Shown here piece by piece: positions 16,807 to 44,280 of a stretch of 64,000 nt of DNA. The translations under genes were made by a program, and so were the position numbers. Position 1 is the first letter of the stretch. Every line of letters starts with the position of its first letter. Source of the stretch: Verrucomicrobiota bacterium (lineage in GTDB: Bacteria > Verrucomicrobiota > Verrucomicrobiia > Limisphaerales > UBA9464); assembly GCA_947471985.1 (NCBI GenBank), contig CANIZL010000024.1, forward strand, positions 1 to 64,000, written 5' to 3'. A model generated the notes under the pieces. The model was not told the DNA's origin. It saw only the letters and a list, made by a program, of their open reading frames with translations, and searched no databases.

Positions 16807-19800
16807 TCATGCCTCCAGCGCCAGTTTCCCCACCAGTTCCGGGAATTCCGTCAACGTTTTCGGCAGTCGATCCAAATCGAATTCCTGAACTTGTTGATCG
16901 AGTCGGCCCGCGTAGTTCCCGAGGCTCGGCCATTCACCGGCCTCGGCCCAGCCCTGCAGCCGGCGGGCAAACGCCTCGATTTCGCCCATGACCTGCGCTT
17001 CGCAGAGGGCCGGCCAAACGGCTTTTTCCTCGTGTCGCAGCTTTTGCAGCAATTCGAGGCGCTTGGCGCGCACGGCGTCGGAGATTGGCGCGGTCACGGC
17101 GGCGGCGACCGGAGCCTCGCCCGCCACCGTCGGCTCCACCGGCCGTTGCTGCGCGGGTTTGAGGAAGCGCTTCAACTCGGCGATCAGCTCCGACCGATTG
17201 AAGGGTTTGCGGATAAAGCCGTCGCAAATCTTGCGCGCCTTGGCTTCCTCTTCGCGGAACGAAGACGCCGTCACGGCAATCACGCGGACGTGTTTCAGCT
17301 CGGGATTCGCCTTCACCCGTTTGGTGGCTTCGTGGCCGTCCATCTCCGGCATGCGCATGTCCATGAGGATGATGTCCGGCCGAAGCGTCTCGGCTTGCGC
17401 CACGGCTTCGACGCCGTTGACGGCCAAAAAAATCTTGTGGCCGGTGCCCTCGAAATAGCCCGTGAGTAGTTCGCGGTTCAACGCGACGTCATCGGCCACG
17501 AGAATCGTTGCCGGGGCGAATTGGGTGAAGTCCCCGTCGCCGCCCATCCCGATCGCGTCGGACTCCGCCAATTCCGTGATAATCACGTTGGGGAATTTAA
17601 AGCGGAACTTGCTGCCGCGGCCCGGATCGCTGGTGACCGTGACCAAACCGTGCATCATCTCGGTGAGGCGGCGGGTGATGGTCAGTCCCAGACCGGTGCC
17701 GCCGAACTTACGCGTGCTCTGGCCCGCCACTTGGGAAAACGCGCCGAAGATGTGCTCCTGCTGTTCCTTCGGAATGCCGATACCCGTGTCGGAAACTTCG
17801 AGAATGAGGTCGATGCGGGTTTCGTCGGGCTCATTCGAGGCGGGCAGGGGAGTGCCGGCCGGTTGTTTCTCGGGGGGACGCTCAAACGTGGCTTTGATTT
17901 TCACATGCCCCTGCTCGGTAAACTTGAGCGCGTTGCCCACGACGTTGAACAAGACCTGTCGCAGCCGCACTTCATCGAGCATCAATCCCCGGGGCAGACG
18001 GGGATCGATTTCGACCAACAGTTGCAGGCCCTTCTCGCCGGCCTTGATCGAAAAGAGTTGTTGAATCTCGGCGACCAACCGCGGCACGCAGATGGGCTCG
18101 TACTGCAATTCCAGTTTGCCGGCCTCGATTTTGGAGAGGTCGAGGATGTCATTGATCAGGGCCAGCAGCGTCCGGCCGCTGGACGAGATGGCGTCGAGAT
18201 AACCCCGGTCCTTGGACGCCGCCATCTGGGTGCGAAGCAACTCCGAGAATCCGAGGATCGCATTCATCGGCGTCCGGATTTCGTGGCTCATGTTCGCCAG
18301 GAACTCGCTCTTGGCGGCATTGGCGGCTTCCGCCTGGGCGCGGGCCGCCTCGGCGGCCGCGCGCGCGGCTTCGAGTTGGGCGTTCTTGGCCTCGATGTCG
18401 GCCCGGGACTGCTCCGCCGCCTTGCGCGCCGCATGTTCCTCGCGCAACAACTGCTCCCGGAGCTGCTCGGATTCGCGCTGGCGTCGAATGACCAGCGACC
18501 GCGCCACAAAGGCCCAGCCCACCAAGCCCAACGCCGCGCCACCTCCGGGGACAACAATAAACGCATTGGCGTACCACGGGGCGACTATGCTCAGGAACAC
18601 TCGTGCGGGTTCCGAGTAATTCAGATCGCGGTCAATCGATTGAACGAAAAACGTGTAGTCACCCGGCGTCTGGGGATTCCAATCGAATTGCGTCGCGGAC
18701 GTCGATTCGCGCCAGACCGCATCGCGCCTGGCCGGGGGTGTTTCCAATTTGCCCGGCACGACCGCACACCGATAGAGACGCCGGAGCGGCTGCGTCTTGA
18801 AATCCGCCGCATTGAAGCGGAATCCGACCAGTTGCCCGGAGGTGATCGAGGGAATCTTTTCTGCGTTGGAACGTTCCTTGTCGGTCTTCACGACCAACTG
18901 CGGCGCCGGGGGAATCTGGCGGGTGGGGCGGTAGCAACTGACACCCTTCGTCGTGCCAATCCAGTACGCGTCATCTTTGCCCTGGCTGATGGTCATCACA
19001 TACATCTCGGGCAGTCCATCGCCGTCATCGAGCCAGGACCAGGTTACGCCATCGTAGCGAAATAGTCCCGAACTCGAGGCGAACCACAGCACGTCGTGGC
19101 GATCCCGGAGGATTTGAAAAACCATTCCCCGCGGCACGGGCCGATCCGCCGTGCCTTCCAAACCGGAGAACTTGGTGCCGTCATATTGGGCCAGGCCGGC
19201 CGCGGTCCCGATATAGAGCAGGCCATCCAAGCCCTCCTGGAAACACCAGACATAGTCCGACGGCAGGGCGCCATCCGTCGTCACGGAGTTGAAGTGCTGA
19301 ACCGCACCGCCGCGGAGGCGTGATAAGCCGTCGGGCCGATAGCGCCCGGCCATCCACAGGGAGTCGTGGGAATCGTGGTAAAGGGCCGAGACCCAGTTGG
19401 TCACGCCCCGGATCTTTTCGACCTGCGCGGTCCCCGCCTGAAGCTCGTTCAGGTTCAGCTTGTTCACTCCATCCATCAACTTGCCGATCCACAGATTGGT
19501 TTGGGCATCTACGTAGAACCCGAAGTTCAGACCGGAGGTCAGGTTCTTGATATTGGGTGGCAGACGGAAGACAGTTTCCCCCGGTGCGCGATAGTACGCC
19601 GCGCCCAAGCCGGATTCCCCGCCGGCCCACAAGCCGCCCTTGGAATCGGCGTACAGGGCGAACACATCGGGTTTATCCATGCCCTCCGTGCGCGCATCCA
19701 GAAAGCGGTTTTCGCCGGGGGCCAGCCGGCCCGGTTTCACGTGCGCGAGATAGGCGCCACTGCTGTCGCCTGCGAACCAAACCGTTCCATCGGTGGTGAC

Positions 19801-22119
19801 GGCGCTGGTGAAAGTCGAGTCGTAGGGCAGACCGTCCGCCTTGCCATAGTTGGCGAAGGTTCCCTCTTCATAGCGATAGAGTCCCGCCCAGGTGGCAAAC
19901 CACAGCGCTCCGTCGGGTCCCGCCCGGATTTTAACGGAGGGCGCCGAAGGCGCATCCTTCCCGGCACCCATCCGGGTGAGCGTGCCGCGAACCGGATCAA
20001 AACGGGTCAATCCACCATTGTTATCGCCCAGCCACAGGATTCCTTCCGGGGTCGTGTAGAGGGCCGAGACCGGTGCGTCGATCCGGCTCTCCGCGCTGAG
20101 GAGGTGTTCCAGATGTTGGCCATCGTATCGCGCTACTCGGTTATTCCGGGGCAGGTTGTCCCGGAACCACAGGGCTCCATCCGGGGCCGCGTGGAGAGCG
20201 TCCAGGAAGGCGGCCCGGCTGACCGCGGCGACTTCCACGGCGTTGGTGCCGTCCACCCGCCACAATCCTTGGAGGTACGTGGTGGTCCACACGTGCCCCT
20301 GACGATCCACCGCCAGGGCCTGGTTCATGATTGTGTCGTAGGGCAGATTGATGCGTGGGATGCCCGGAATGGTTTCGAAGGTTTGTCCCTGGTAGCGGGA
20401 CAATCCTTCGCGCGTTCGCAGCCACAGCGTCCCATCCGGTGCCGTTGCCAGGTCGAAGACACGTCCGGCACTCAGGCCATTGGTGCCGCTGGGGAAACTT
20501 TGGAAACGGCCCTTGGCGGCATCCCAGCGGGAAACGCCCTTCTCGCTGCCAAACCAAAGCGCTCCGTCAGGCCCGGGCTGAATGCAAAACACGCTCTTGT
20601 CGAGGAGGCCATCGCGCTCCGAGAAGTTGGCGAACCGCAAGCCATCAAAGCGCGAAACCCCCGCCTGCGTGGCCAGCCAGAGCATCCCGTTGGTAGCGAA
20701 ATGGAGATCGTAGATCTGACTGCCGGGCAAGCCGTTGGCGGTGGTGTAGCGGCGCCAATGACCTTTGCGGAAGGGGGCGATCTGGAAATCCGCGGTTTGC
20801 GTCTGCCCGGTTTGCACCCGCAGGACCTCGCCCTGGTGATATTCAATCACCCCATCCGGTGCGTGGATGCGCACTTTGTACTCCCCGGGCCGAACATTGG
20901 GAAAACGATATTCCGCCACGCCGTTGGTGAGAAGGGCAACCGCCGACGCCGCGAGTCCCGGGGTGGTGAGACTTCCGGCCGTGCGGGGCGGAGCGTCCGC
21001 CCGCACCAAGTGAACGATGACGTCCGGAATCGGCGAACCGTCGAAGGCCGTGATCCGGCCGGTGAGATTGACGTTCGGGGCCAGGGTCAGGTTGACCTCC
21101 CGGCGTTCACCGCTCCGGCACGTCACTCCGAAAGCCCACGCGCCCAGATCCCCGCTACTGCCTTGAACATCGAAATTTCCCGCGACCATCGGAGCGGGAA
21201 TAACCCGGGAGTAGGTGCCATCCGTACTGGAGAGGATCCGGACAAGTTCCTGGTCCTGGCGCAGGATTCTCACCGTGGCATTGGGCATCGGTTGGCCGGT
21301 GGCATCCTGGAGGCGGCCGGCGACGACCGCGGGACGGAGCAGCGCCGAGGGCAATGGCAGTGCGGCTTCGATGATTTTGGCGTTGCCGATCAAGCGGCCG
21401 TGATGGGCACCGGCCGTGGTGTCCTTCACCACTCCGTTTTCCACCTCATCAAAATTCCACAAACCCGCCAACCCGGGCTCGTTGCCGGTCAGGCGGCGGA
21501 ACAGGGTATCGTTGATCTCCGCCTCACTCCGCACGCGGTTCCAGACCCGGAATTCGTCCATCGCCCCTTTGAACAACGCGGGCGTATCGTTCGTGGTCAC
21601 CGTCTGGCCGAGGAAATTGCGGGTGCCATTGCGCAGGCCGGTAAAGCTGCCGGTGTAGCTGTTGGACCCGACGAGGACGCCGTTGAGATACAGGCGCATT
21701 CCGCCTTTGCCGGAAACGGCTGCCACGTGACACCACTGGCCCGCGCTCAGGACGTCATCCACGTCGATCCAGTGCAGGTCGGAGAGCCGACCGGAAGGGT
21801 CCGCCACCACGAAGCGCAGTTGGCCGGTGTCATGTTCCGCAAAGACGGACATATCGCCCAGCGCACCGCCGTAATTGAACAGGCGTTTCTCGGCCCCGGT
21901 GAAGGCATCCCAGCGCACCCAGGCTTCCACGGTGGCCTCTTCGAAGGTGTTGAAGAGATTTGGGGGTAGTTCGACGAAACCGCCGGTGCCATCGAGTTCG
22001 AGGACCCGCTGTGGGGCGGGCCGGGATTGGGCGTTAAGACCGCCGGCCCAAAGCAAGAACAGCAGGACGGGAACCAGGAATCGCCCGGGGTGCCTTCGCA
22101 GAGTCATTTGCAAGCGCAC
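16807..22119 (-). CDS. Giant hybrid sensor kinase: LamG, Cna-B-like, propeller sensor, HisKA, HATPase, REC
   Basis: A 1770-residue membrane sensor. Order: signal peptide ([16 protein letters not shown]), LamG-like domain (about 40-245), one or two carboxypeptidase-regulatory-like beta domains (about 260-440), two seven-bladed regulator propellers made of repeats such as [16 protein letters not shown] (about 455-1090), Y_Y_Y domain (about 1105-1175), transmembrane helix (about 1184-1204), Ala-rich coiled coil, HisKA with His 1279 in [14 protein letters not shown], HATPase, a receiver with Asp 1587 in [14 protein letters not shown], and an about 90-residue helical tail. Known propeller kinases of Bacteroidetes sense polysaccharide fragments; the LamG addition suggests extra glycan binding. 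Unlike those, it lacks a C-terminal HTH. Confidence 0.93.
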
Positions 22120-26933: not shown

Positions 26934-28943
26934 ATGAGTCCGAGTCTGGAAAAACTGGAAACACTTTTCGAAGCGGCCGTGGCTTTGGAAACGGAGGGCC
27001 AACGGGCCGAGTACCTGGATCGGGCGTGCCCCGATCCAGCGCTTCGGCGCGAGGTCGAAACCCTGCTGGTGTGCCATCAAAAGCCGGATCGGGTTTTTGC
27101 GCGCGACACGATCCGGGTGGTCCCGGTTGACGTCAGCGGTTCGTACCGATCGGGCCAGTGTTTGGGGCAAATTCTGGATGCGAAATACCGCCTGGACCGT
27201 CTGCTCGGCCAGGGCGGCATGGGTGAGGTTTACCTCAGCACCCATCTGGGCACCGGGCGCTACGTCGCGGTGAAGTTGATTACCCCGCAGTACATGCGGA
27301 ACCCGGAGTTCGTCGAACGATTCAAACGCGAAGCGCGCGCGGCGGGACGCTTGCGGCATCCGAATATCGTCGACGTTACGGACTTCGGCGTGGCGCAGGT
27401 CGACGGCGAGGACGTCGCCTATCTGGTCATGGAGTTTTTGGACGGCTGCACGCTGAGCGATGTGCTGGCGGAGGAGGTCCGGCTGCCGCTTCCGTGGGTG
27501 GTTGATATACTCGAACAGGTTTGTTCCGCCGTGCAGGAAGCGCATCGGCGCGGCATCATTCACCGGGATCTGAAGCCGGCCAACATTTGGCTCGAACCGA
27601 ACGCCCTGGGGGGCTATCGCGTGAAAGTGCTGGATTTCGGCATCGCGAAACTGGCCGAAGTCTCGGAATCGGTGAGCGCGTTACCGCGTCGGGCGATCCC
27701 GCCGCCCGCGGCGCTGCCGGCTCGGCGAGTCGCACCCTCGGCGACCGGGAGCACGTCCGCGGACGGTCGCACTCCGATAAACCCGGCGGCCGTCCCCGCC
27801 GCCGGGCTGACGGAAGTTGGCTCGATTTTGGGCACGCCGTGGTACATGTCGCCCGAGCAATGCCATGGCGACGCTCTGGATGCCCGCTCGGATATCTACA
27901 GTCTGGGCATTATCGCGTATCAGATGGTGGCTGGCACGACGCCCTTCACCGGGGATGGTTTGGTGGTGCTGCGTGCGCATCAGGAGAGTCAACCCAAGCC
28001 ACTGGAGGACCACGTCCGCAAGCTGCCGCTGCCGGTGTCGCGGGTCATTATGTCGGCGCTGGAGAAGGACCCGGCGTTGCGACCGCAAACCGCGATGGCG
28101 TTCGCGCACGCCTTGCGCGCTAATACAGAGAATCTGGGCGCCCTGTATCGACGCGCGTTCGCGCTCTACTGCGAATACTTTCCCCAGATCATCACGCTCT
28201 CGCTGCTCGCCCATATTCCGGCGATACTTATCACTCTCATGATGGTCGGATTGAGGGTGGCGGATCCGTGGCTGGGGCAGGGTGGTCAAATTGCCTTGGG
28301 GATTCCGATCGGGCTTCTCCGGGGAGCCGCGAACTTTCTGGCGGGCTCGGTCGTTTCCGGCGTCATCGCCATCATGGTGACGCAATTGGCGGTGATGCCG
28401 CTGAAGCCGGTGACGCTGCGCACGGCCTTTGCGCCCCTGCGGGGTCGTTGGCGGCCGCTGTTGAAAACCGGTCTCGTGGGCACCTTGAGAATCTTCCTGG
28501 GGTACCTTCTGCTGGTGATTCCGGGCATTGTGATGACGGTCCGCTATTCGCTTTGGGCCCCCGTGGTGCTCCTTGAGGGACTGGAAAATCGGGCCGCCCT
28601 GGAACGTTCGCGGCGCCTGGCCGCGCGTTCGTGGCGCACCGTCTTTGCGACCGTCCTCTTTCTGGCCCTGTTGCCGATCGTGATCGAGTGGGTGATCACC
28701 CGACTCGCGGGCGTCGGTGGCGGCGATAAACCGAGCCTCGCGCAAAATGTGGCCTCCGAGTTGATCACCCTGAGCAGCGTCTTTTTCCTGCCCCTGGTCT
28801 CCATCGTCATGGCGCTCGTCTACCTGAAGATGCGGCAGCTTGCCGGCGAGGAGATGACCCAGTTGATGCCCCGGATTGAGGGTTCCACGGTGCGGGCCAA
28901 GTGGGATCGGCGAATACGCACCGACGTGGATTCGGTGGTTTGA
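26934..28943 (+). CDS. Ser/Thr protein kinase with C-terminal membrane domain
   Basis: A 669-residue protein. The N-terminal 60 residues (LFEAAVALETEGQRAEYLDR) are the helical segment common in this kinase group. The Hanks kinase follows: GQGGMGEVY at 92-100, Lys 114 in VAVKLI, HRDLKPAN at 210-217, DFG at 234-236 and the PEQ motif after GTPWYMS. The stretch between DFG and GTPWY carries an unusual Pro/Ala-rich insert of about 45 residues. After residue 400 come five or six membrane helices with the block LGYLLLVIPGIVMTVRYSLW, like membrane domains of DUF975/GlpQ-associated proteins. It is probably membrane bound and partnered with the ECF sigma factor before it. Confidence 0.93.
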   Translation: MSPSLEKLETLFEAAVALETEGQRAEYLDRACPDPALRREVETLLVCHQKPDRVFARDTIRVVPVDVSGSYRSGQCLGQILDAKYRLDRLLGQGGMGEVYLSTHLGTGRYVAVKLITPQYMRNPEFVERFKREARAAGRLRHPNIVDVTDFGVAQVDGEDVAYLVMEFLDGCTLSDVLAEEVRLPLPWVVDILEQVCSAVQEAHRRGIIHRDLKPANIWLEPNALGGYRVKVLDFGIAKLAEVSESVSALPRRAIPPPAALPARRVAPSATGSTSADGRTPINPAAVPAAGLTEVGSILGTPWYMSPEQCHGDALDARSDIYSLGIIAYQMVAGTTPFTGDGLVVLRAHQESQPKPLEDHVRKLPLPVSRVIMSALEKDPALRPQTAMAFAHALRANTENLGALYRRAFALYCEYFPQIITLSLLAHIPAILITLMMVGLRVADPWLGQGGQIALGIPIGLLRGAANFLAGSVVSGVIAIMVTQLAVMPLKPVTLRTAFAPLRGRWRPLLKTGLVGTLRIFLGYLLLVIPGIVMTVRYSLWAPVVLLEGLENRAALERSRRLAARSWRTVFATVLFLALLPIVIEWVITRLAGVGGGDKPSLAQNVASELITLSSVFFLPLVSIVMALVYLKMRQLAGEEMTQLMPRIEGSTVRAKWDRRIRTDVDSVV

Positions 28944-29064
28944 TCACCCGCCGGCGGGGGCACGCGCCCCGAGGGTTTCCGACGGGGCGAAACTTTTCGC
29001 AGATCGATGTCCGATCGGCTGGGGAAACGTCGCCAGAGGTTATGGAACGACGAATCTGCCACCT

Positions 29065-30294
29065 ATGTTAACGCCTCCCCAAAACGATGCGGAAGTTGCC
29101 GAGACCCTCGGCTTGAACGCGAAGCCGAAGCGGTTTTTTCCGCGGAGCGCCGGCGCCCTCGCGTTGTATGCGGTTCTCGCGCTGGGCGGCGGGTATTTCT
29201 ACTGGCAGAGCCAGCTGCGGAACCGCACCCCGCGTTTTGAGCTGGCGCCAGCCCGGCGCGGCGATCTCACGGTGATCGTTTCGGCCACCGGCACGTTGCA
29301 GCCGGTAAATACGGTCGAGGTCGGCGCCGAGATTTCCGGGCGCTTGGAACGGGTGGCGGTGGACTTCAATGCCCACGTCAAAAAGGGCGACACCCTGGCG
29401 GAAATCGACACCAAACAACTGCGGGCCCAGGTGGAACGTTCCGCGGCGGGACTGGAAGCCGCGGAAGCCGGCCTCAAGCAGGCGCAGGCGACGCTCCTGG
29501 AGGCGAAGCAGAACATGAGCCGGATCGAGCAGTTGGCGGTCTCCAAACTGATTTCGCAGCAGGAACTGGATGCCGCGCGCGCCACGTTCGCCCGCGCCGA
29601 AGCCGGCGTCGCCAGTGCGCAGGCGCAGGTGACGGTATCGCGGGCCGGTCTCAACGCCGATCGCACCAATCTGGAAAAGGCCGTCATCCGCTCGCCCATC
29701 GATGGTGTCGTACTCGCCCGGAAAGTCGAACCCGGCCAGACCGTCGCGGCCACCTTTCAGACGCCCATTCTCTTCAAATTGGCCGAGGATCTGACGCGCA
29801 TGAAGCTCATCGTAAACGTCGATGAAGCGGATGTGGGCGGCGTCCGGGAATCCCAAGCAGCGACGTTTCGCGTCGATGCGTACCCGGATCGGGAGTTTTC
29901 GGCGCGCATCGCCTCGGTGCGTAACGAGCCGTTAACGGTTCAGGGGGTGGTGAGTTACGAGGCGGTCCTGACGGTGGATAATACAGAGGGATTGCTCCGC
30001 CCGGGGATGACCGCCACGTCGACCATTCGCACGGAAGCGCGCACGAATGTCCTCTTGGTTCCCAACACCGCGCTGCGCTTCGTGCCGCCGGGGGCGACGT
30101 TGCCGGCGTTGCCGGATGCGGCGACGGGCGTCCGGGAGACTGCGCCGAACTACGTCTGGATTTTGCGCGACAAAACCCCCGTGCCGGTGCGCGTCAAAAA
30201 GGGCCTCACCGACGGGCGCTCCACCGAGGTGCTGTCCGGCGAAGTCGCCGTCGGGCTCCAGCTCCTCGTGGACGTCGTCAGCAAGGCCAAATGA
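29065..30294 (+). CDS. Periplasmic adaptor (membrane fusion) subunit, MacA-like
   Basis: A 409-residue protein with one N-terminal membrane helix (SAGALALYAVLALGGGYFYW), the biotinyl-lipoyl halves (VSATGTLQPVNTVEVGAEIS and VIRSPIDGVVLARKVEPGQT), an alpha-hairpin between them with regular heptads, and beta-barrel and membrane-proximal domains. It links an inner-membrane ABC transporter to an outer-membrane exit duct. The start at 29065 is chosen because the frame upstream overlaps the kinase gene. The stop overlaps the next gene by 4 bp (ATGA). Confidence 0.93.
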   Translation: MLTPPQNDAEVAETLGLNAKPKRFFPRSAGALALYAVLALGGGYFYWQSQLRNRTPRFELAPARRGDLTVIVSATGTLQPVNTVEVGAEISGRLERVAVDFNAHVKKGDTLAEIDTKQLRAQVERSAAGLEAAEAGLKQAQATLLEAKQNMSRIEQLAVSKLISQQELDAARATFARAEAGVASAQAQVTVSRAGLNADRTNLEKAVIRSPIDGVVLARKVEPGQTVAATFQTPILFKLAEDLTRMKLIVNVDEADVGGVRESQAATFRVDAYPDREFSARIASVRNEPLTVQGVVSYEAVLTVDNTEGLLRPGMTATSTIRTEARTNVLLVPNTALRFVPPGATLPALPDAATGVRETAPNYVWILRDKTPVPVRVKKGLTDGRSTEVLSGEVAVGLQLLVDVVSKAK

Positions 30295-31016
30295 GGCCAA
30301 CCCCTCCCTCGGATCCGCCGCCGCCCGGCACGCTGCTGGAACTGCGCAACGTCACCAAGATCTATGGTCAGGGCGAAGTGCAGGTGAAGGCGCTCGCGGG
30401 CGTCGACCTGCGGATTGCCCGCGGCGAATTCGTGGCCGTCATGGGACCCAGTGGATCGGGCAAGTCCACCTGCATGAATCTCCTGGGCTGTCTCGATACG
30501 CCGACGTCCGGAAGTTACCGGTTCCGGGGCCTGGAAGTGGGTGCGCTCTCGCGCGATCAGCGGGCGCTGCTGCGTCGCCACTATTTGGGTTTCGTGTTTC
30601 AGGGCTTCAATCTATTGGCCCGGACGACGGCCCTGGAAAATCTCGAACTGCCGATGATCTATCGCGGGATTCCGGCGGCGGAACGTCATCGTCATGCGCG
30701 CGCGGCGCTGCAAGCCGTGGGTTTGGCGAATCGCGAGGGCCATACGCCGGGCGAACTCTCCGGCGGACAACAACAGCGCATCGCCATCGCGCGGGCCATT
30801 GTCACCAACCCTGACCTGATCCTGGCCGATGAACCCACCGGCAATCTCGATTCCGCCCGCAGTGTGGAGATCATGGAGTTGCTCGTCCGCCTCAATCGGG
30901 AGCGCGGCATGACCATCGTCATGGTTACCCACGAACCCGACATGGCGGCCTTTGCCCGGCGCATCATTCACTTCCGGGACGGCCTGATCGCCTCCGACGA
31001 AACTTCTCAACCATGA
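30291..31016 (+). CDS. ABC transporter ATPase, MacB/LolD type
   Basis: A 241-residue ATPase with Walker [10 protein letters not shown] at 52-60, the signature LSGGQQQR near 153 and Walker [14 protein letters not shown]. The sequence [20 protein letters not shown] and [19 protein letters not shown] places it in the MacB/LolD/FtsE group that energises mechanotransmission. It overlaps the adaptor and permease genes by 4 bp on both sides, so the three form a tight operon. Exported substrate unknown: candidates are macrolide-like compounds, peptides or lipoproteins. Confidence 0.95.
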
Positions 31017-32215
31017 ATCTGCTGACCACGTTTATTCTGGCGATTCGCGAAGTGCGACGACATCTGTTGCGCTCCGCCCTGACCACCCTCGGGATTGTGA
31101 TCGGTGTTGGCGCGGTGATCCTGATGGTGACGTTGGGGCGCGGCGCGCAGGCGCAGGTGACCTCCACGATTTCCAGCCTCGGGCGCAACCTGATGATCCT
31201 GGTGCCGGAGCGGGCCGTGCGCACGGGCGGCGGCGGGTCGACCGCTCCGTTTAAGATGGAGGACATGCTGGCGATTGCCCGCGATGTGCCCAATGCCGTG
31301 GTGGCGCCGCAGGCGGCGAGTTCGGTGCTGGTCATTTACGGGAATGAGAGTCGGCCCGTCGGGGTGACGGGAATCGACAACCAATGGTTTGTGGCCCGGG
31401 ATTGGAAGTTGAGCGCGGGTCGCACGTTTTCCGATGCGGAACTCCGTTCCGGGCGCCCCGTTTGCGTCATTGGCGCGACGACTCGGAAGGAGCTTTTCAA
31501 ATATCAGAATCCGCTCGGCGCCACGCTCCGCATTGGCAAGGTCTCGTGTGAAGTTGTCGGCCTGCTGGAGGCCAAGGGGGCCAGTTTTGGCAATGACCCG
31601 GACGATGTCGTGCTGCTCCCGCTGCAGACGTATCAACGGCGAATCGCGGGGAATCGCGACATTGGCATGGCCTGGATTTCCGCCCGATCGAGCGACGACA
31701 TTGCGAAAGTTCAGGCGGACGTGACGAGTCTGATGCATGAGCGACGGCGGCTGGGCCCCGGCGAGCCCGATGATTTTGCGGTGAAGGACATGAAGGAGAT
31801 CTCCAAAACCGTCGGGCAGGTCACGACCCTTTTGACCGCATTTCTCAGTTCCATTGCCGCGGTCAGTTTGGTGGTCGGTGGGGTGGGCATCATGAACATC
31901 ATGCTGGTGTCCGTGAAAGAGCGGACCCGGGAGATTGGGATTCGCATGTCCATTGGCGCGATGGAGGGGGAAGTGATGCAGCAGTTTCTGGTGGAAGCGG
32001 TGACACTGTCGGTCCTGGGCGGATTGATGGGTGTCGCCGGCGGACTTCTGAGTTCGGCGATTGCCTGCCACTTCATCAAGCTCCCGTTTGTGCTGGATTT
32101 TTCTATCGTCGTGCTGGCCTTCGTTTTCTCCGCGACGGTGGGCGTGGTGTTTGGTTATTTCCCGGCGCGCCAGGCCGCGCGCCTCGATCCGATCGAAGCG
32201 CTGCGCTACGAGTGA
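31013..32215 (+). CDS. ABC transporter permease, MacB/FtsX type
   Basis: A 400-residue permease with the family layout: N-terminal helix (LTTLGIVIGVGAVILMVTLG), a large periplasmic MacB_PCD domain, then three helices around residues 278-300, 320-350 and 360-385 with GGVGIMNIMLVSVKERTREI and the ending GYFPARQAARLDPIEALRYE. ATPase and permease are separate genes here, while in proteobacterial MacB they are fused. It ends the operon; no outer-membrane TolC-like gene follows. Confidence 0.95.
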   Translation: MNLLTTFILAIREVRRHLLRSALTTLGIVIGVGAVILMVTLGRGAQAQVTSTISSLGRNLMILVPERAVRTGGGGSTAPFKMEDMLAIARDVPNAVVAPQAASSVLVIYGNESRPVGVTGIDNQWFVARDWKLSAGRTFSDAELRSGRPVCVIGATTRKELFKYQNPLGATLRIGKVSCEVVGLLEAKGASFGNDPDDVVLLPLQTYQRRIAGNRDIGMAWISARSSDDIAKVQADVTSLMHERRRLGPGEPDDFAVKDMKEISKTVGQVTTLLTAFLSSIAAVSLVVGGVGIMNIMLVSVKERTREIGIRMSIGAMEGEVMQQFLVEAVTLSVLGGLMGVAGGLLSSAIACHFIKLPFVLDFSIVVLAFVFSATVGVVFGYFPARQAARLDPIEALRYE

Positions 32216-32550: not shown

Positions 32551-35500
32551 ATGAAACGACTACTTTACGCGCTTGCCGCTGCCGGGCTCGTCCTTTTGGG
32601 CGAGCTGGGCGCGTGTGCCGCGGCGAGTCATCCCGCATTCATGAGCCCGCAGGCAGCGCCCCTCGTCGTGGCCGGCGGTTTCGTCTTTGTTGCCAATACT
32701 CCCGCGGATACCGTCGATGTCATCAAGGTCAGCACCCACGCCGTCGTAGCCCGTATTCGCGTCGGCATTGAACCGGTCGGCGTCGCTGCCCGCCCGGACG
32801 GTAAAGAGGTGTGGGTATCGAATCATGTCTCGGATTCGGTAAGTGTGATCGATGCGGATCCGGCGAGTCCGACCCACTTTCAGGTCATCGCCACGGTGCA
32901 GGATTTTGATCCGGCCACGAAGGCGACGCGCTTTGATGAGCCGGTTGGCATCGCTTTCGCCGGCAACGACAAGGCCTACGTTGCCCTTTCCTCGGAGAAC
33001 CAGATCGCGGTGATCGACGTGACCCGGCGCACGGTGGTCCATCGATTGAATATCCCGGCGCAAGACCCGCGGGCCCTCGTGGCGCGCGGCGGACGGCTTT
33101 ATGTGATTCCGTTTGAGTCCGGCAACCAGACGCAGCTTTCCGGTGGCACGGGCAAGCCGGACGGCAATCTCGTGACGTTCAACGCCTGGAACCACTCCAT
33201 CGCCACCAACAACGTCCTCTCCCTCGGACACGTCGTGGATATCGTAAAACACCCCAAGGTGCCGGATCGGGACCTGTTCGTGTTTGACACCGCCACGGAC
33301 ACGCTCGTCGAGACCGTCAGCACCCTGGGCACGTTGCTTTACGGATTGGCCGTGGACTCGGATGGATTCGTTTTCATTGCGCAGACGGATGCGCGGAATG
33401 ACGTCAATGGCCGCGCCGGGACGCAAAAACACGGACTGAAAGAGCTGGAGAATCGCGCGTTTCTCAATCGCATCACGAGCGTTACCTTCGGCCCCGGGCG
33501 GGCGGATCCCCCGTCGTTCATCGACCTCGAGCCCCTGCCACCGCAACACCCTGAAGAGGGCATGGCCTTGGCGACGCCCTATGCCATTCAAGTTAGTGAC
33601 GACGATTTGACGCTCGTGGTCTCAGCGGCCGGTTCGGACAAACTTTTCACCGTGGACGTCGCCACCGGGGCGGTGGTCGGACGCGTCAGCGTTGGCGCGG
33701 TTCCGCAGGGCATCGCGCTGGAATGCGCCGCGGACGGAAAGCTGTCGCGAGCGTGGGTGCTCAATGCCGCTGACGACACCGTTTCCCTCGTGGACCTCGC
33801 GCATCCGGCGAAGCCCGTGGTCGTCGATACCATCTCTCTCACGGATCCCACCCCGGCGCTGTTGAAACGGGGGCGCATCGCCTTCGAGACCGCGGCGTCG
33901 TCGACGACCGGCACCTTCTCCTGTGCCAGTTGCCATCCCAATGGGCATACCGATCAACTGCTGTGGGTCCTCCAGACACCGATCGTGACCGGTGGCGACC
34001 AAATCATGCCGCGGCTGACCATGCCGATTCGCGGCCTGCGCGACACGGAGCCGTATCATTGGGACGGAACCCTCGGCGATCCCTACGGCGGCATTAATTC
34101 CGCGCATCTTCGGACCGTTGTCGCCCCCAACAGCCGGCTCGGTGCGCCGGAGACCGCCGCGCGCAATCTTATCGATGCCGGCCTCGCCTCGACGATGAGC
34201 CGGGCCGGCGACACGACGCGCAACGAGGAAGAAAAACCGGGCCGGCTGTCGGCAACCAACCGCGACGCGCTGGCCAAATTCCTTTTGGCCGTTCCGTATC
34301 CCCCGGCCCAACGGCGCGCTTTCGACAACGTGGTGTCCGCCGAGGCCCGGAATGGCTTCCGGTTGTTCCACCTCGACGGTGACAACGACCCCACCAAGTC
34401 CCGGCCCAACGTCTGCGGGGATTGCCATCGGATGCCGTTTTGGACCAGCACCAAAACCCCGGGCACCGGCATGGACGCGCCCACCTGGCGGGGCGCCTAT
34501 GATCGGTGGATGATCCTCCCGCAGGGGCGGCTCAATATCATCGACTTCAACTTCTACCGCGACGCCGCGGAACGGGGCGCGCCCGAACGCAGCATCTGGC
34601 AGTTTGCCTGGGGTGGACGCCAACGCTTCGACCCGGTTTGGAACATGGTCCTCGAAGGCAGCACCGGTTTCTCCGGTGCCTTTGCCCGGCAGGTGACGCT
34701 CAATCAATCCACCGCGTCCGACGCCTTCACTCAGGAGCTTTTGGATGCCTTGGAAGGCGCCGCCGGCGAGGGCGCCGTTGTGCTCGAGGGCGAAGGAGTC
34801 TGGATCAACGCAGGAAAAGCGACGCCGGTCGAGCTCGACTTCAAGAGCAACGCGAAAACCGGAGGTTATCTCGAACGCAAGGGTCCGGGAAAATCCTTCG
34901 CCCGATCCGACCTGCTCGCGATGGCCACAGCCGGTCGTTTCGTTGGGACCTTTACCGCCCGGCTCGGCCCTTGGGTGGACGTGGACCATCCGCAGCCCGC
35001 CCTTTGGACGCTTGGCCCGATGCAAAAGCAGAGCGGCCGCCAGGAGTTCCCGATCCTGTACCCGGGCAATTCCCGAATGAAGCTCAGTGGCCGCCACGTT
35101 CGCGCGGACGCCCGTCTGGTGGTCGATGGCCGACGTGTGGCTGGAACCGTGGCCCTGGAGGCGGGGGAGACCGTCGTCATCCAATTGGCCACCGTGCCTC
35201 CTTCCGGACTCCACCTTCTGCAAGTCCAAACTCCGGACGGGCTTTTCAGTAACGAGTTTATTTTTCAGGTAGCCGACAACCGCGGCGTGGCGGACGAACT
35301 GGATCGCCGTCTGGATGACGCCCGGGGCCGCCCGGCGGAACTTCTGCCGCTCGCCATTGCCCGTGGGGACCTTGAAGCCGCCCAACGCCACTTGGCCCAC
35401 GGCGCGGGCGTGAATGAGCCGGATCCCAAAACCGGCTCGGTGCCCCTCAGTATCGCTGCGTTGCACGGCCGCCTGGATATCGCCCGCTATCTCCTCGAGC

Positions 35501-35841
35501 ACGGCGCGGACGTTTCCGCCGCCAATCGCGACGGCAACACGCCGCTGCATACGGCCGCCTTCCTCGGACGAACGGAGATGTTGAAACTCCTGATCGACAA
35601 GGGTGCGTCCGTCACCCGGCGCAATCGGCGTGGGGAATCGCCGGCCGACGTGGTCTCGGGACCTTGGAACGAAGGGCTCGAAAAGTTTTACGGCTCTGTC
35701 GAAGTTTCTGCGGACATCAGCCTAGATCTCCGCTCGATCCGGGAGGAAAGACCCAGGATGGCCAAGCGCCTTAGCGCATTGGCCCAAAAGGCGATCCGAG
35801 ACGTCCGCCCACCCACCGTCAACGCGCCGAACCCTCCCTGA
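32551..35841 (+). CDS. Secreted YncE-like propeller / di-haem cytochrome c / ankyrin fusion
   Basis: A 1096-residue exported protein. A signal peptide (LLYALAAAGLVLLGELGACA) is followed by a YncE-type seven-bladed propeller (VANTPADTVDVIKV, VGIEPVGVAARPDGKEVWVS; about 30-445). Two haem-binding motifs follow, CASCH at 458 and CGDCH at 622, in a region like di-haem cytochrome c peroxidase/MauG-related proteins. After a beta region three ankyrin repeats (GSVPLSIAALHGRLDIARYL, NTPLHTAAFLGRTEMLKLLI) occupy about 935-1040. The combination of haem redox module and ankyrins on one exported chain is unusual. Partner and electron donor are unknown. Confidence 0.88.
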   Translation: MKRLLYALAAAGLVLLGELGACAAASHPAFMSPQAAPLVVAGGFVFVANTPADTVDVIKVSTHAVVARIRVGIEPVGVAARPDGKEVWVSNHVSDSVSVIDADPASPTHFQVIATVQDFDPATKATRFDEPVGIAFAGNDKAYVALSSENQIAVIDVTRRTVVHRLNIPAQDPRALVARGGRLYVIPFESGNQTQLSGGTGKPDGNLVTFNAWNHSIATNNVLSLGHVVDIVKHPKVPDRDLFVFDTATDTLVETVSTLGTLLYGLAVDSDGFVFIAQTDARNDVNGRAGTQKHGLKELENRAFLNRITSVTFGPGRADPPSFIDLEPLPPQHPEEGMALATPYAIQVSDDDLTLVVSAAGSDKLFTVDVATGAVVGRVSVGAVPQGIALECAADGKLSRAWVLNAADDTVSLVDLAHPAKPVVVDTISLTDPTPALLKRGRIAFETAASSTTGTFSCASCHPNGHTDQLLWVLQTPIVTGGDQIMPRLTMPIRGLRDTEPYHWDGTLGDPYGGINSAHLRTVVAPNSRLGAPETAARNLIDAGLASTMSRAGDTTRNEEEKPGRLSATNRDALAKFLLAVPYPPAQRRAFDNVVSAEARNGFRLFHLDGDNDPTKSRPNVCGDCHRMPFWTSTKTPGTGMDAPTWRGAYDRWMILPQGRLNIIDFNFYRDAAERGAPERSIWQFAWGGRQRFDPVWNMVLEGSTGFSGAFARQVTLNQSTASDAFTQELLDALEGAAGEGAVVLEGEGVWINAGKATPVELDFKSNAKTGGYLERKGPGKSFARSDLLAMATAGRFVGTFTARLGPWVDVDHPQPALWTLGPMQKQSGRQEFPILYPGNSRMKLSGRHVRADARLVVDGRRVAGTVALEAGETVVIQLATVPPSGLHLLQVQTPDGLFSNEFIFQVADNRGVADELDRRLDDARGRPAELLPLAIARGDLEAAQRHLAHGAGVNEPDPKTGSVPLSIAALHGRLDIARYLLEHGADVSAANRDGNTPLHTAAFLGRTEMLKLLIDKGASVTRRNRRGESPADVVSGPWNEGLEKFYGSVEVSADISLDLRSIREERPRMAKRLSALAQKAIRDVRPPTVNAPNPP

Positions 35842-41607: not shown

Positions 41608-44280
41608 TCACTCGTACGGGTTGGCCTTTTTTACCGGCACCGTGACGCCGTCCTTCGGGGGCGTGGTGAGGGTGGCGAGAAACGCGAGGATGTCGGCGAG
41701 TTCCTGCTCCTTCAACAGGACACCCAGGGGCGGCATGGGTGAGATGCCTAAATTCTCAAATCCCTTCGCGAGTTTGGCGTTGGGATCCATCAGGCTTTCC
41801 AGAATGTAGGCCTGGTCACTGCGGACGGCGATGCCGTCGAGGATCGGACCCACGTCGCCGCCCTTGCCCTTCGCGGTGTGGCAGGAGGCGCACGCGGCCG
41901 TGGGGCTGTTGTAGAATAAGTCCGCGCCCCGCCGGATGTCGCCGGCTTCAACTTTGACTTCATTCTCACCCACGGCGGCCACTTTGTGAATGCGACCCAA
42001 CAAGGTGAGCGTGTCGTTCAGATAAGGGTCGGTGGTATTGACCGCGGTGCGGGGCAATTGGGCGACCACCGTCTGGATCGCCGGAATGGACGGGAATTCC
42101 ACCAGCTTCACGAGCGCCGCCTGGCGCGTCACCAGATCCGGATCCTGAATCACCGCACTGCTGAAGAACAAGGCGCGCCCGTTTTCATTGGCGGGCAGGG
42201 CCCGGATGGCATTGCGACGCAGGGCCGGATCCTTGGCCGTCAGCGCGGCTTGGTGCGTGTCCTTGTCGAGCGCGCCGAGACCGGCCAGCGACCAGAGGGA
42301 GTGGATGGCTCCCGTGCCCCCCGCGGACGAGCGGACGCGTTTGCGCAACGCCGGAACCGCTTCCGTATTCCTGTTATCCACCAGCAGTCCCTGCGCGGTG
42401 AGGCACCAGAATTGGTTGCCGCTGTCGAGCGCCGCCACGAGTTCCGGCGCCTCGGCGTTGGCGAGGGATTTGATCGCACTGCGCGGTCCGTCCTTCCACA
42501 CGAGGCGATAGATGCGGCCGTGAGTTTGGTCGCGCAGATCGTTCGCCGTTTGATAGGCACCGCCCGATCCGGTGGTGGCCTGAATGCCCGCGGATTGCAC
42601 GCTGGGTGTCGGATTGTGCTGGATGATGAAACTATAGAAATCGATCACCCAAATCGCGCCGTCCGGTCCGACGTCCGCAAAGATGGGCGACATCCATTCA
42701 TCCGAACTGGCGAGGAGATTTCCGCCGTCACCGGCCCGGTAGCCGGCACCGTCCGGCTGAATGTCCATGATGCCGATGAGCTTGGCCGTCGGTTCCGTCA
42801 CGAGCGCCTTGCCGCGCAGGCGGGGTGGCAGCGCGTCACTTACCATGAAGGTGTGGCCCGCCGCCGCCGTATATCCGCCGAAGTTGTCTACCATGCGGAC
42901 ATTCGGGGTGTTCGGGTGCATGCGCAGGCCGGGCGCCATCGACTTGGCGGTGGGCAGTCGGCGAACCTGCGGCGCGACGTCCTCTTTGCCGTTGTCGGGT
43001 TCCAGGCGATAGCCGGGACGAAATCCTCCACCCCCGCGCCGTCCGAAGCCCGGTTGCGTCGGGTTCACGATGTTGGCCGGCAGATAACCATAGAATGTCG
43101 GATGCCCATTGGCGGTCGACCCGAAGACATCGCCGGATTCATTGAAGCCAAAGCCCCAGGTGTTGTTGTTGAATTGGTGGAGAAATTCCAGCGCGGAACC
43201 GTCCGCCTTGAAGCGAAAAATGCCCTGCCCGAACTGGAGATCCTTGCCGCCCACATTGCCGCGGAAGTTGGAGTAGCCGACGGCGCCATAGAGCCAGTTG
43301 TCGAAGCCCCGGCCGAGACTGCTCTGCATCGCGTGCGTGTCGGCCGCGCCCCAACCGGGGAGGAGCACCTGCCGGACGTCGGACTTGTCATCACCATCGG
43401 TGTCCTTGAGGAACAGCATATGGCGCGCTTCGGCGACGATTACGCCACCATTCACGAACACCAGCGACGTCGCGAGGTTCAGGTGATCGGCGAAGATCGT
43501 GAACTTGTCGGCCTTGCCGTCGCCATCGGTATCTTCGCAGATCTTAATGTCCGCTTTGCCGGGTTCGCCTTCAGCCACCAGACCGTGGGGATAGTCCCGC
43601 CCTTCCACCACCCAGGCGCGTCCACGCGCGTCCCACGCCACGGACATGGGCTTCACGACCTCGGGCTCGGCGGCGAAGAGTTGCAGCTCGAAATCCGCCG
43701 GCACCTGCGTGTAGCGCAGGCTGTCCTTGGGTGTCAGGGGCGCCTGCAGCTTCACCGGCTCGGCACGACGCTCGTAATTCGGCACCTCGCCCGGCAGACG
43801 TTGCAAGTCGGGCCGGGCCGCGAGGGACGCCTCCCACTCCGACCGGGCCTTCGGGCCCACAACACCGAGGAGCGCCAGGCGCAGCTCGGCATCGGGTGGT
43901 CGTTGGCCCTCGGTGAATTTCAGCAACCCTTTACCTGCCGACTTCCAGCCCTCCAGCAAGCGCTGTTGGGCGGCGCCCACGGCCGTGTCCGGCACCGCCT
44001 GGACCACCGCATCGAAGTGGCTCAGGTAGGCGTCCGTGAGTTGGGTGATATCGGACAAATGATCGAAATAAATCGCCTCCGGCGCGAGCGTCTGGCCCGG
44101 CAGATAGACGTAGTTGGTGCGTGAACCGCCCCCACCGCCGCCCCCCCGTGCTCCGCTGACCGGATTGCCCGCGCCCAGATATAAAATGTGGAGCGGGCGA
44201 TCCGGCACGTCCGCGGCCAAACTTTTTAGGACCATTAGACCGGCCGTCAGCGGCGTCAGTATCAGCGTCAATTTCTTCAT
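41608..44280 (-). CDS. PVC-type haem-binding CxxCH protein (membrane-bound dehydrogenase-like)
   Basis: An 890-residue exported protein. After the signal peptide, a ThuA-like N-terminal domain (LHILYLGAGNPVSG, to about 140) is followed by the six-bladed PQQ-type sugar-dehydrogenase propeller typical of the PVC N-terminal domain (VAWDARGRAWVVEGRDYPHG, DSDG-type loops, WVIDFYSFIIQHNPTP). HEAT-like repeats follow, and a C-terminal cytochrome c domain with CASCHTAKGKGGDVGP and the distal Met in GISPMPPLG. A poly-Gly run of nine lies near residue 45. It should oxidise a carbohydrate outside the cytoplasmic membrane and pass electrons to its haem. Confidence 0.92.
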   Translation of the reverse strand: MKKLTLILTPLTAGLMVLKSLAADVPDRPLHILYLGAGNPVSGARGGGGGGGSRTNYVYLPGQTLAPEAIYFDHLSDITQLTDAYLSHFDAVVQAVPDTAVGAAQQRLLEGWKSAGKGLLKFTEGQRPPDAELRLALLGVVGPKARSEWEASLAARPDLQRLPGEVPNYERRAEPVKLQAPLTPKDSLRYTQVPADFELQLFAAEPEVVKPMSVAWDARGRAWVVEGRDYPHGLVAEGEPGKADIKICEDTDGDGKADKFTIFADHLNLATSLVFVNGGVIVAEARHMLFLKDTDGDDKSDVRQVLLPGWGAADTHAMQSSLGRGFDNWLYGAVGYSNFRGNVGGKDLQFGQGIFRFKADGSALEFLHQFNNNTWGFGFNESGDVFGSTANGHPTFYGYLPANIVNPTQPGFGRRGGGGFRPGYRLEPDNGKEDVAPQVRRLPTAKSMAPGLRMHPNTPNVRMVDNFGGYTAAAGHTFMVSDALPPRLRGKALVTEPTAKLIGIMDIQPDGAGYRAGDGGNLLASSDEWMSPIFADVGPDGAIWVIDFYSFIIQHNPTPSVQSAGIQATTGSGGAYQTANDLRDQTHGRIYRLVWKDGPRSAIKSLANAEAPELVAALDSGNQFWCLTAQGLLVDNRNTEAVPALRKRVRSSAGGTGAIHSLWSLAGLGALDKDTHQAALTAKDPALRRNAIRALPANENGRALFFSSAVIQDPDLVTRQAALVKLVEFPSIPAIQTVVAQLPRTAVNTTDPYLNDTLTLLGRIHKVAAVGENEVKVEAGDIRRGADLFYNSPTAACASCHTAKGKGGDVGPILDGIAVRSDQAYILESLMDPNAKLAKGFENLGISPMPPLGVLLKEQELADILAFLATLTTPPKDGVTVPVKKANPYE

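Follow-up and report, generated by a model that had tools for sequence, protein, structure and literature searches.

Fused homologues of the β and γ subunits of hydrazine synthase (HZS) are prevalent among environmental bacteria, and these homologues, like CCP and MauG, carry Trp where HZS γ has His144, according to excerpts of a recent study (Hagglund et al. 2025, PMC12758564). The word ankyrin does not occur in that paper. In HZS β-γ of Kuenenia (fused into one chain in Scalindua), which is exported, a seven-bladed propeller is followed by a two-haem CCP-like core with a third haem-linking Cys (γ-Cys165). The di-haem CCPs, MauG, BthA and YhjA have two CxxCH motifs and an inter-haem Trp, and a propeller is also found in the YncE/YVTN proteins. 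Finally, AnkB of Pseudomonas, which is periplasmic, and Cj1386 of Campylobacter are ankyrin-repeat proteins that act with a haem peroxide enzyme.

Here, we analyzed a 64,000-nucleotide stretch of DNA from a Verrucomicrobiota bacterium (the window), in which one gene joins a propeller, a two-haem core and ankyrin repeats. A single open frame on the + strand begins at TTG 32545 or ATG 32551 and ends with a stop at 35841; counted from the ATG, it encodes 1096 aa. In the protein, a signal peptide and a seven-bladed YVTN propeller precede a core with two CxxCH motifs, behind which come a pair of beta domains, the ankyrin repeats and, last, a helical tail. An earlier note on this DNA had proposed that a propeller, a two-haem cytochrome and ankyrin repeats are joined in one exported protein; the single frame, the Pfam and NCBIfam matches and the presence of both CxxCH motifs confirmed this for a protein predicted to be exported. 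In comparison to HZS β-γ, the protein has additional C-terminal beta domains and an ankyrin module. The CCPs, MauG, BthA and YhjA lack its fused propeller and its C-terminal modules, the YncE/YVTN proteins lack a haem or ankyrin part, and AnkB and Cj1386 are separate proteins with a catalase partner, whereas the ankyrin analyzed here is fused to a di-haem core. Among the papers listed on ankyrin with planctomycete cytochromes, MauG, HZS or ECF sigma factors, none reports a propeller-dihaem-ankyrin fusion.

For comparison, 84,980 species genomes were scanned, yielding 132 pattern matches, 122 of which were relatives. The best 80 of the 122 were kept, by a ranking that favours long, ankyrin-bearing matches. 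L088 had no usable open frame, and the alignment consists of the other 79 loci and the window (80 rows; 52-82% identity to the window). From it, an AlphaFold2 model was built (mean pLDDT 83.3, pTM 0.83), which displays the propeller, a helical haem core, the beta domains, the ankyrin helices and a long helical tail; the haem-pocket loops are poorly modelled (pLDDT <50).

The N-terminus (residues 1-25; 32551..32625, +) has a single hydrophobic stretch (residues 4-18) followed by an A-x-A-type site, read by eye. Since the N-terminal Cys is not kept in the near relatives L026 and L095, a type-I signal peptide with a signal peptidase I site is likely, rather than a lipoprotein signal, and the 1096-aa protein would be exported by the Sec route. 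The propeller follows at residues 27-430 (32629..33840, +). Its repeats exceed the curated cut-offs for YVTN propellers: NCBIfam TIGR02276 detects four of them (74.5 bits; cut-off 27.85), and Pfam YNCE (PF21783) matches residues 33-105 (35.5 bits; cut-off 27.1). The top structure match of the propeller model was 1l0q (Z 34.5), and the second-best chain was HZS β (5c2v_B; Z 32.1, rmsd 2.1, 307 residues aligned), a ranking to be read in light of how widely propellers match each other.

The core occupies residues 431-742 (33841..34776, +). Haem motif 1 (CASCH, residues 458-462; 33922..33936, +), with invariant Cys and His, and the invariant haem motif 2 (CGDCH, residues 622-626; 34414..34428, +) are both present in 80/80 rows, drawn from the best 80 of 122 relatives plus the window; two or more CxxCH motifs arose in 0/20000 shuffles of the protein. 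A PDB search with residues 425-760 (profile from 36/80 rows) retrieved HZS γ (5c2v_C, E 8.8e-7) and otherwise weak matches to di-haem enzymes alone. In line with this, HZS γ was the best chain for the core model (5c2v_C; Z 8.2, rmsd 4.7, 213 aligned), followed by the CCP YhjA (Z 7.4) and BthA (Z 6.6), all at modest Z. The second core fold was built from a core alignment of 78/80 rows. These CCP and HZS γ matches come from the second structure comparison and the profile search; plain Foldseek with the core model gave neither among the top 50 matches listed. Pfam CCP_MauG (PF03150; cut-off 25.6 bits) scored 17.5 bits at residues 441-509 of the window protein, which is below threshold, and 21.4 in L064, 19.3 in L063, 26.0 in L105 and 27.2 in a paralogue at L043. 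Together, sequence and model argue strongly for a CCP/MauG-superfamily di-haem domain. The candidate distal ligand of the second haem is Met699 (34645..34647, +; Met in 79/80 rows), rather than the Tyr that MauG and BthA have there. It lies 73 residues past His626, a spacing that we take to be close to that of CCPs; haem ligation is not visible in the model.

Two beta domains follow at residues 743-908 (34777..35274, +), as judged from the model's secondary structure; the second resembles an IPT/TIG or galactose-oxidase C-terminal domain, with weak matches (Z 4-5). The ankyrin repeats span residues 928-1030 (35332..35640, +), with Ank_2, Ank_4 and Ank above the Pfam cut-offs at residues 934-1025 (Ank_4, 75.2 bits; cut-off 22.7). 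Behind them lies a helical tail (residues 1031-1080; 35641..35790, +), which is conserved in the fused rows, with Val1035, Tyr1047, Arg1067 and Leu1074 in 42/42 and Trp1039 in 41, and which also follows other ankyrin copies.

In our leading reading, to which we give moderate confidence, the protein works in the periplasm as a peroxidase- or oxidase-like di-haem enzyme from the CCP/MauG superfamily and uses its ankyrin tail to dock with a partner at the inner membrane. An oxidant, for example H2O2, would react at the first haem (His462), and electrons from the second, His/Met-ligated haem (His626/Met699) would travel via Trp504. The propeller would cap the haem core and shape substrate access. 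The ankyrin repeats and the tail could serve as a docking arm or tether, keeping the enzyme attached to its partner on the periplasmic side of the inner membrane. The earlier note had suggested a partner at the cell surface; the operons of relatives suggest the inner membrane instead, and they point to two ankyrin-bearing membrane proteins as the likeliest partners, an anti-sigma-like protein whose gene follows that of an ECF sigma factor, and an acyltransferase-3.

Alternatively, the ankyrin part could be a built-in maturation or stabilizing factor for its own haem core, as AnkB and Cj1386 are for catalases. We consider this unlikely. In its favour, the whole-chain pTM of 0.83, ankyrins included, allows fixed packing. 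Moreover, such ankyrin proteins interact with catalase and promote it via stabilization or haem binding, according to excerpts of a review (PMC10294975), and excerpts of PMC4518328 count Cj1386 as a haem-trafficking protein. Against it, 12/80 rows keep both haem motifs with a complete, short, ankyrin-free C-terminus, and the ankyrin shows lower conservation than the core that it would assist: mean pairwise identity is 0.50 in the ankyrin (42 fused rows) and 0.70-0.71 in the propeller and core. These values nevertheless indicate an ankyrin module that is conserved rather than decaying. To our knowledge, the ankyrin helpers described so far act with catalases that carry b-type haem rather than with covalent c-type haem, and we know of no conserved tail in AnkB or Cj1386. 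No catalase was detected among the window genes scanned. The catalase helpers also bear on the earlier note's view that exported ankyrins are unusual, which was partly right: the lineage has several predicted-exported copies, and periplasmic ankyrin proteins that aid haem catalases are published (excerpts of PMC10294975). For annotation, ankyrin repeats in a protein of PVC bacteria do not on their own mark it as cytoplasmic or host-directed.

The ankyrin might also be an exchangeable accessory of little consequence, one of several add-ons in a promiscuous C-terminal slot, which we regard as improbable. After residue 905, the 80 rows (from the best 80 of 122) carry ankyrin in 46, another domain in 16 and little or nothing in 18, 6 of which are cut by contig ends. 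The propeller-CxxCH-ankyrin architecture for which the earlier note advised a search is thus present in 46 of the 80 aligned family members, Verrucomicrobiota and Planctomycetota among them. On a tree of the core, with the contig-cut L066, L072, L081, L092, L100 and L101 left uncounted, the ankyrin label requires 10 changes, and the window falls within a 9-row set with ankyrin in all 9. Judged by these changes, the ankyrin has been lost or replaced repeatedly and so is dispensable for the core reaction. That the module arose once and has long been kept in several phyla nevertheless argues against an accessory of little consequence. When 75 ankyrin modules were placed in a tree, made from short repeats by a quick method, a single branch (SH-aLRT 96) set all 42 fused modules (42/42) apart from those of acyltransferases, anti-sigma-like and solo proteins; of the 33 other modules, only the unlabelled fragment L072 falls among them. 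L029, L048, L057 and L065 were left out of this tree and of the identity values. A single ancient fusion, followed by losses and replacements, fits this branching best.

In 12 of the 16 rows with another domain, the alternative tail resembles, by eye, one common domain (LGTWVDEG...). This domain of ~130 residues fills the ankyrin slot in L105, L064, L074, L087, L090, L097 and L104, and it had no Pfam match in L105 and L064. Most hosts of the 80 rows belong to Planctomycetota and Verrucomicrobiota, and labels of Kiritimatiellota, Poribacteria, Armatimonadota, Acidobacteriota, Actinomycetota and Pseudomonadota also occur; the majority are MAGs, which may be mislabelled. In two loci, a paralogue adjoins the gene: a 2124-aa frame with 46% identity to enzyme residues 25-1075 (L035:1379-7750), and L043:3-2189 (43%), with CCP_MauG and ankyrin hits.

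Very improbable, in our estimation, is nitrogen chemistry of the HZS type. The window protein does have the combination characteristic of HZS, with a propeller that matches HZS β and a di-haem fold that matches HZS γ. However, the position of γ-His144, located by counting along the profile alignment, is taken by Trp504 (34060..34062, +), which also aligns with the catalytic CCP/MauG Trp and is a conserved inter-haem Trp in 80/80 rows. No counterpart of the third haem-linking Cys (γ-Cys165) is conserved: only the four CxxCH Cys are kept family-wide, and the one other frequent Cys column lies within the ankyrins. Furthermore, the NCBIfam HZS scores are far under their cut-offs (β, 60.1 of 560 bits; β-γ, 48.6 of 1250; γ, 16.1 of 625), and no HZS α-like protein was found among the scanned neighbours in the window. 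On its residues, the enzyme is therefore not HZS and groups with the CCP/MauG-like homologues of HZS β-γ. Finally, the joining of a separate ankyrin gene by a sequencing or assembly error near 35300, which the earlier note had named as its refuting case, has a practically negligible probability and is excluded by the same fusion in L026, L079 and L095 (81-82% identity), by more distant copies in independent assemblies of other phyla, and by an even codon-position composition across 35300.

The ankyrin repeats with the tail were also detected in other proteins. In the window's genome (G000 contig C25) and others of its family, they lie inside Acyl_transf_3 membrane proteins. In L002:631-2511 (-), on that contig, and in L014, L016, L020 and L022-L025, the module is inserted past the third membrane helix of acyltransferase-3-type proteins, probably in a periplasmic loop according to the positive-inside rule; L002 was identified by Pfam scan, and the others were recognized by an RRHDLDALR start. 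In L018, L019 and L079, the module occurs in small genes of exported or lipoprotein-like type. The anti-sigma-like protein, encoded directly after an ECF sigma gene, has a short N-terminal domain with weak likeness to FecR-type anti-sigma proteins (E 0.038), two ankyrin-plus-tail modules and, between these and the N-terminal domain, one predicted membrane helix. In the membrane-anchored proteins L105:2862-4223 and L078:5073-6401, the two modules replace the FecR domain.

The ankyrin anti-sigma-like gene lies near the enzyme gene in 5/79 loci (L045, L051, L053, L078 and L105) and the acyltransferase in 7/79, L061 and L062 being near-copies. The cultured Planctomycetes bacterium TBK1r (L047), which carries the fusion, has the acyltransferase as well as the enzyme. 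For the acyltransferase, roughly 0.15 neighbours are expected by chance in 726343 flank bases at ~1 copy per 5-Mb genome, a rate based on a match in 10/24 genomes that may differ in planctomycetes. An ECF-type sigma gene is near the enzyme gene in 18/79 loci; such genes are common in these phyla, so this may not exceed chance. Among the closest relatives (L026-L030, L079 and L095), a sigma gene is directly downstream in 7/7 and a FecR gene in 6/7. In the planctomycete loci L078 and L105, genes for the sigma factor, the ankyrin anti-sigma-like protein, the ankyrin-bearing acyltransferase and the enzyme follow one another in this order on one strand. There, beside both ankyrin partners, the enzyme has lost its own ankyrin tail and carries an unrelated domain instead. 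This is the chief weakness of the docking reading, and it could mean that the proteins divide the work or that they do not touch directly. These arrangements raise a tentative and rather unlikely extension of the docking reading, in which the ankyrin-plus-tail would be a shared periplasmic docking code of PVC bacteria: haem oxidase, anti-sigma-like protein and acyltransferase would come together at the membrane, so that an ECF sigma factor could be informed of the enzyme's redox state or occupancy.

In the window, the sigma/anti-sigma/acyltransferase cassette is absent beside the enzyme gene, with neither a sigma nor a FecR gene downstream; the genome carries its ankyrin acyltransferase on contig C25, and the one FecR match is on C30. 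Directly upstream of the enzyme gene is an export operon (28876..32215) of a MacA-like protein (28876-30294, +), an ABC ATPase (30291-31016, +) and a MacB-like protein (31013-32215, +), with HlyD, ABC_tran, MacB_PCD and FtsX hits. As a fixed partner, it was rejected: near the relatives, homologues of MacA (5/79 loci), the ABC ATPase (7/79) and MacB (5/79) are few and mostly distant (24-33% identity, some ABC 50-51%), so the operon is not a conserved orthologous neighbour. The glucuronoyl-esterase-like gene downstream of the enzyme was also rejected as a partner (near 1/79 relatives).

A phylum-wide search at E 1e-100, with two candidates scored per genome, retrieved 1/387 genomes, the window's own, which points to either a patchy family or a shallow search. 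At the family level, 4 of 58 genomes had a match at E 1e-100 or better (G000, G005, G012 and G024), one being the window's own; the copies in G005 and G012 are the L079 and L095 contigs. In L009 (G024 contig C313), the gene copy falls into two frames, broken near residue 514 by a frameshift or an assembly error. In L010 (G016 contig C123), the first 155-163 residues alone are detectable within a long contig, apparently as a decayed remnant. Elsewhere in the window, 41608-44280 (-) encodes a DUF7133 protein whose C-terminus is a cytochrome c domain, and 16807-22119 (-) encodes a hybrid two-component regulator of 1770 aa that combines propeller repeats with a laminin-G-like domain at the N-terminus.
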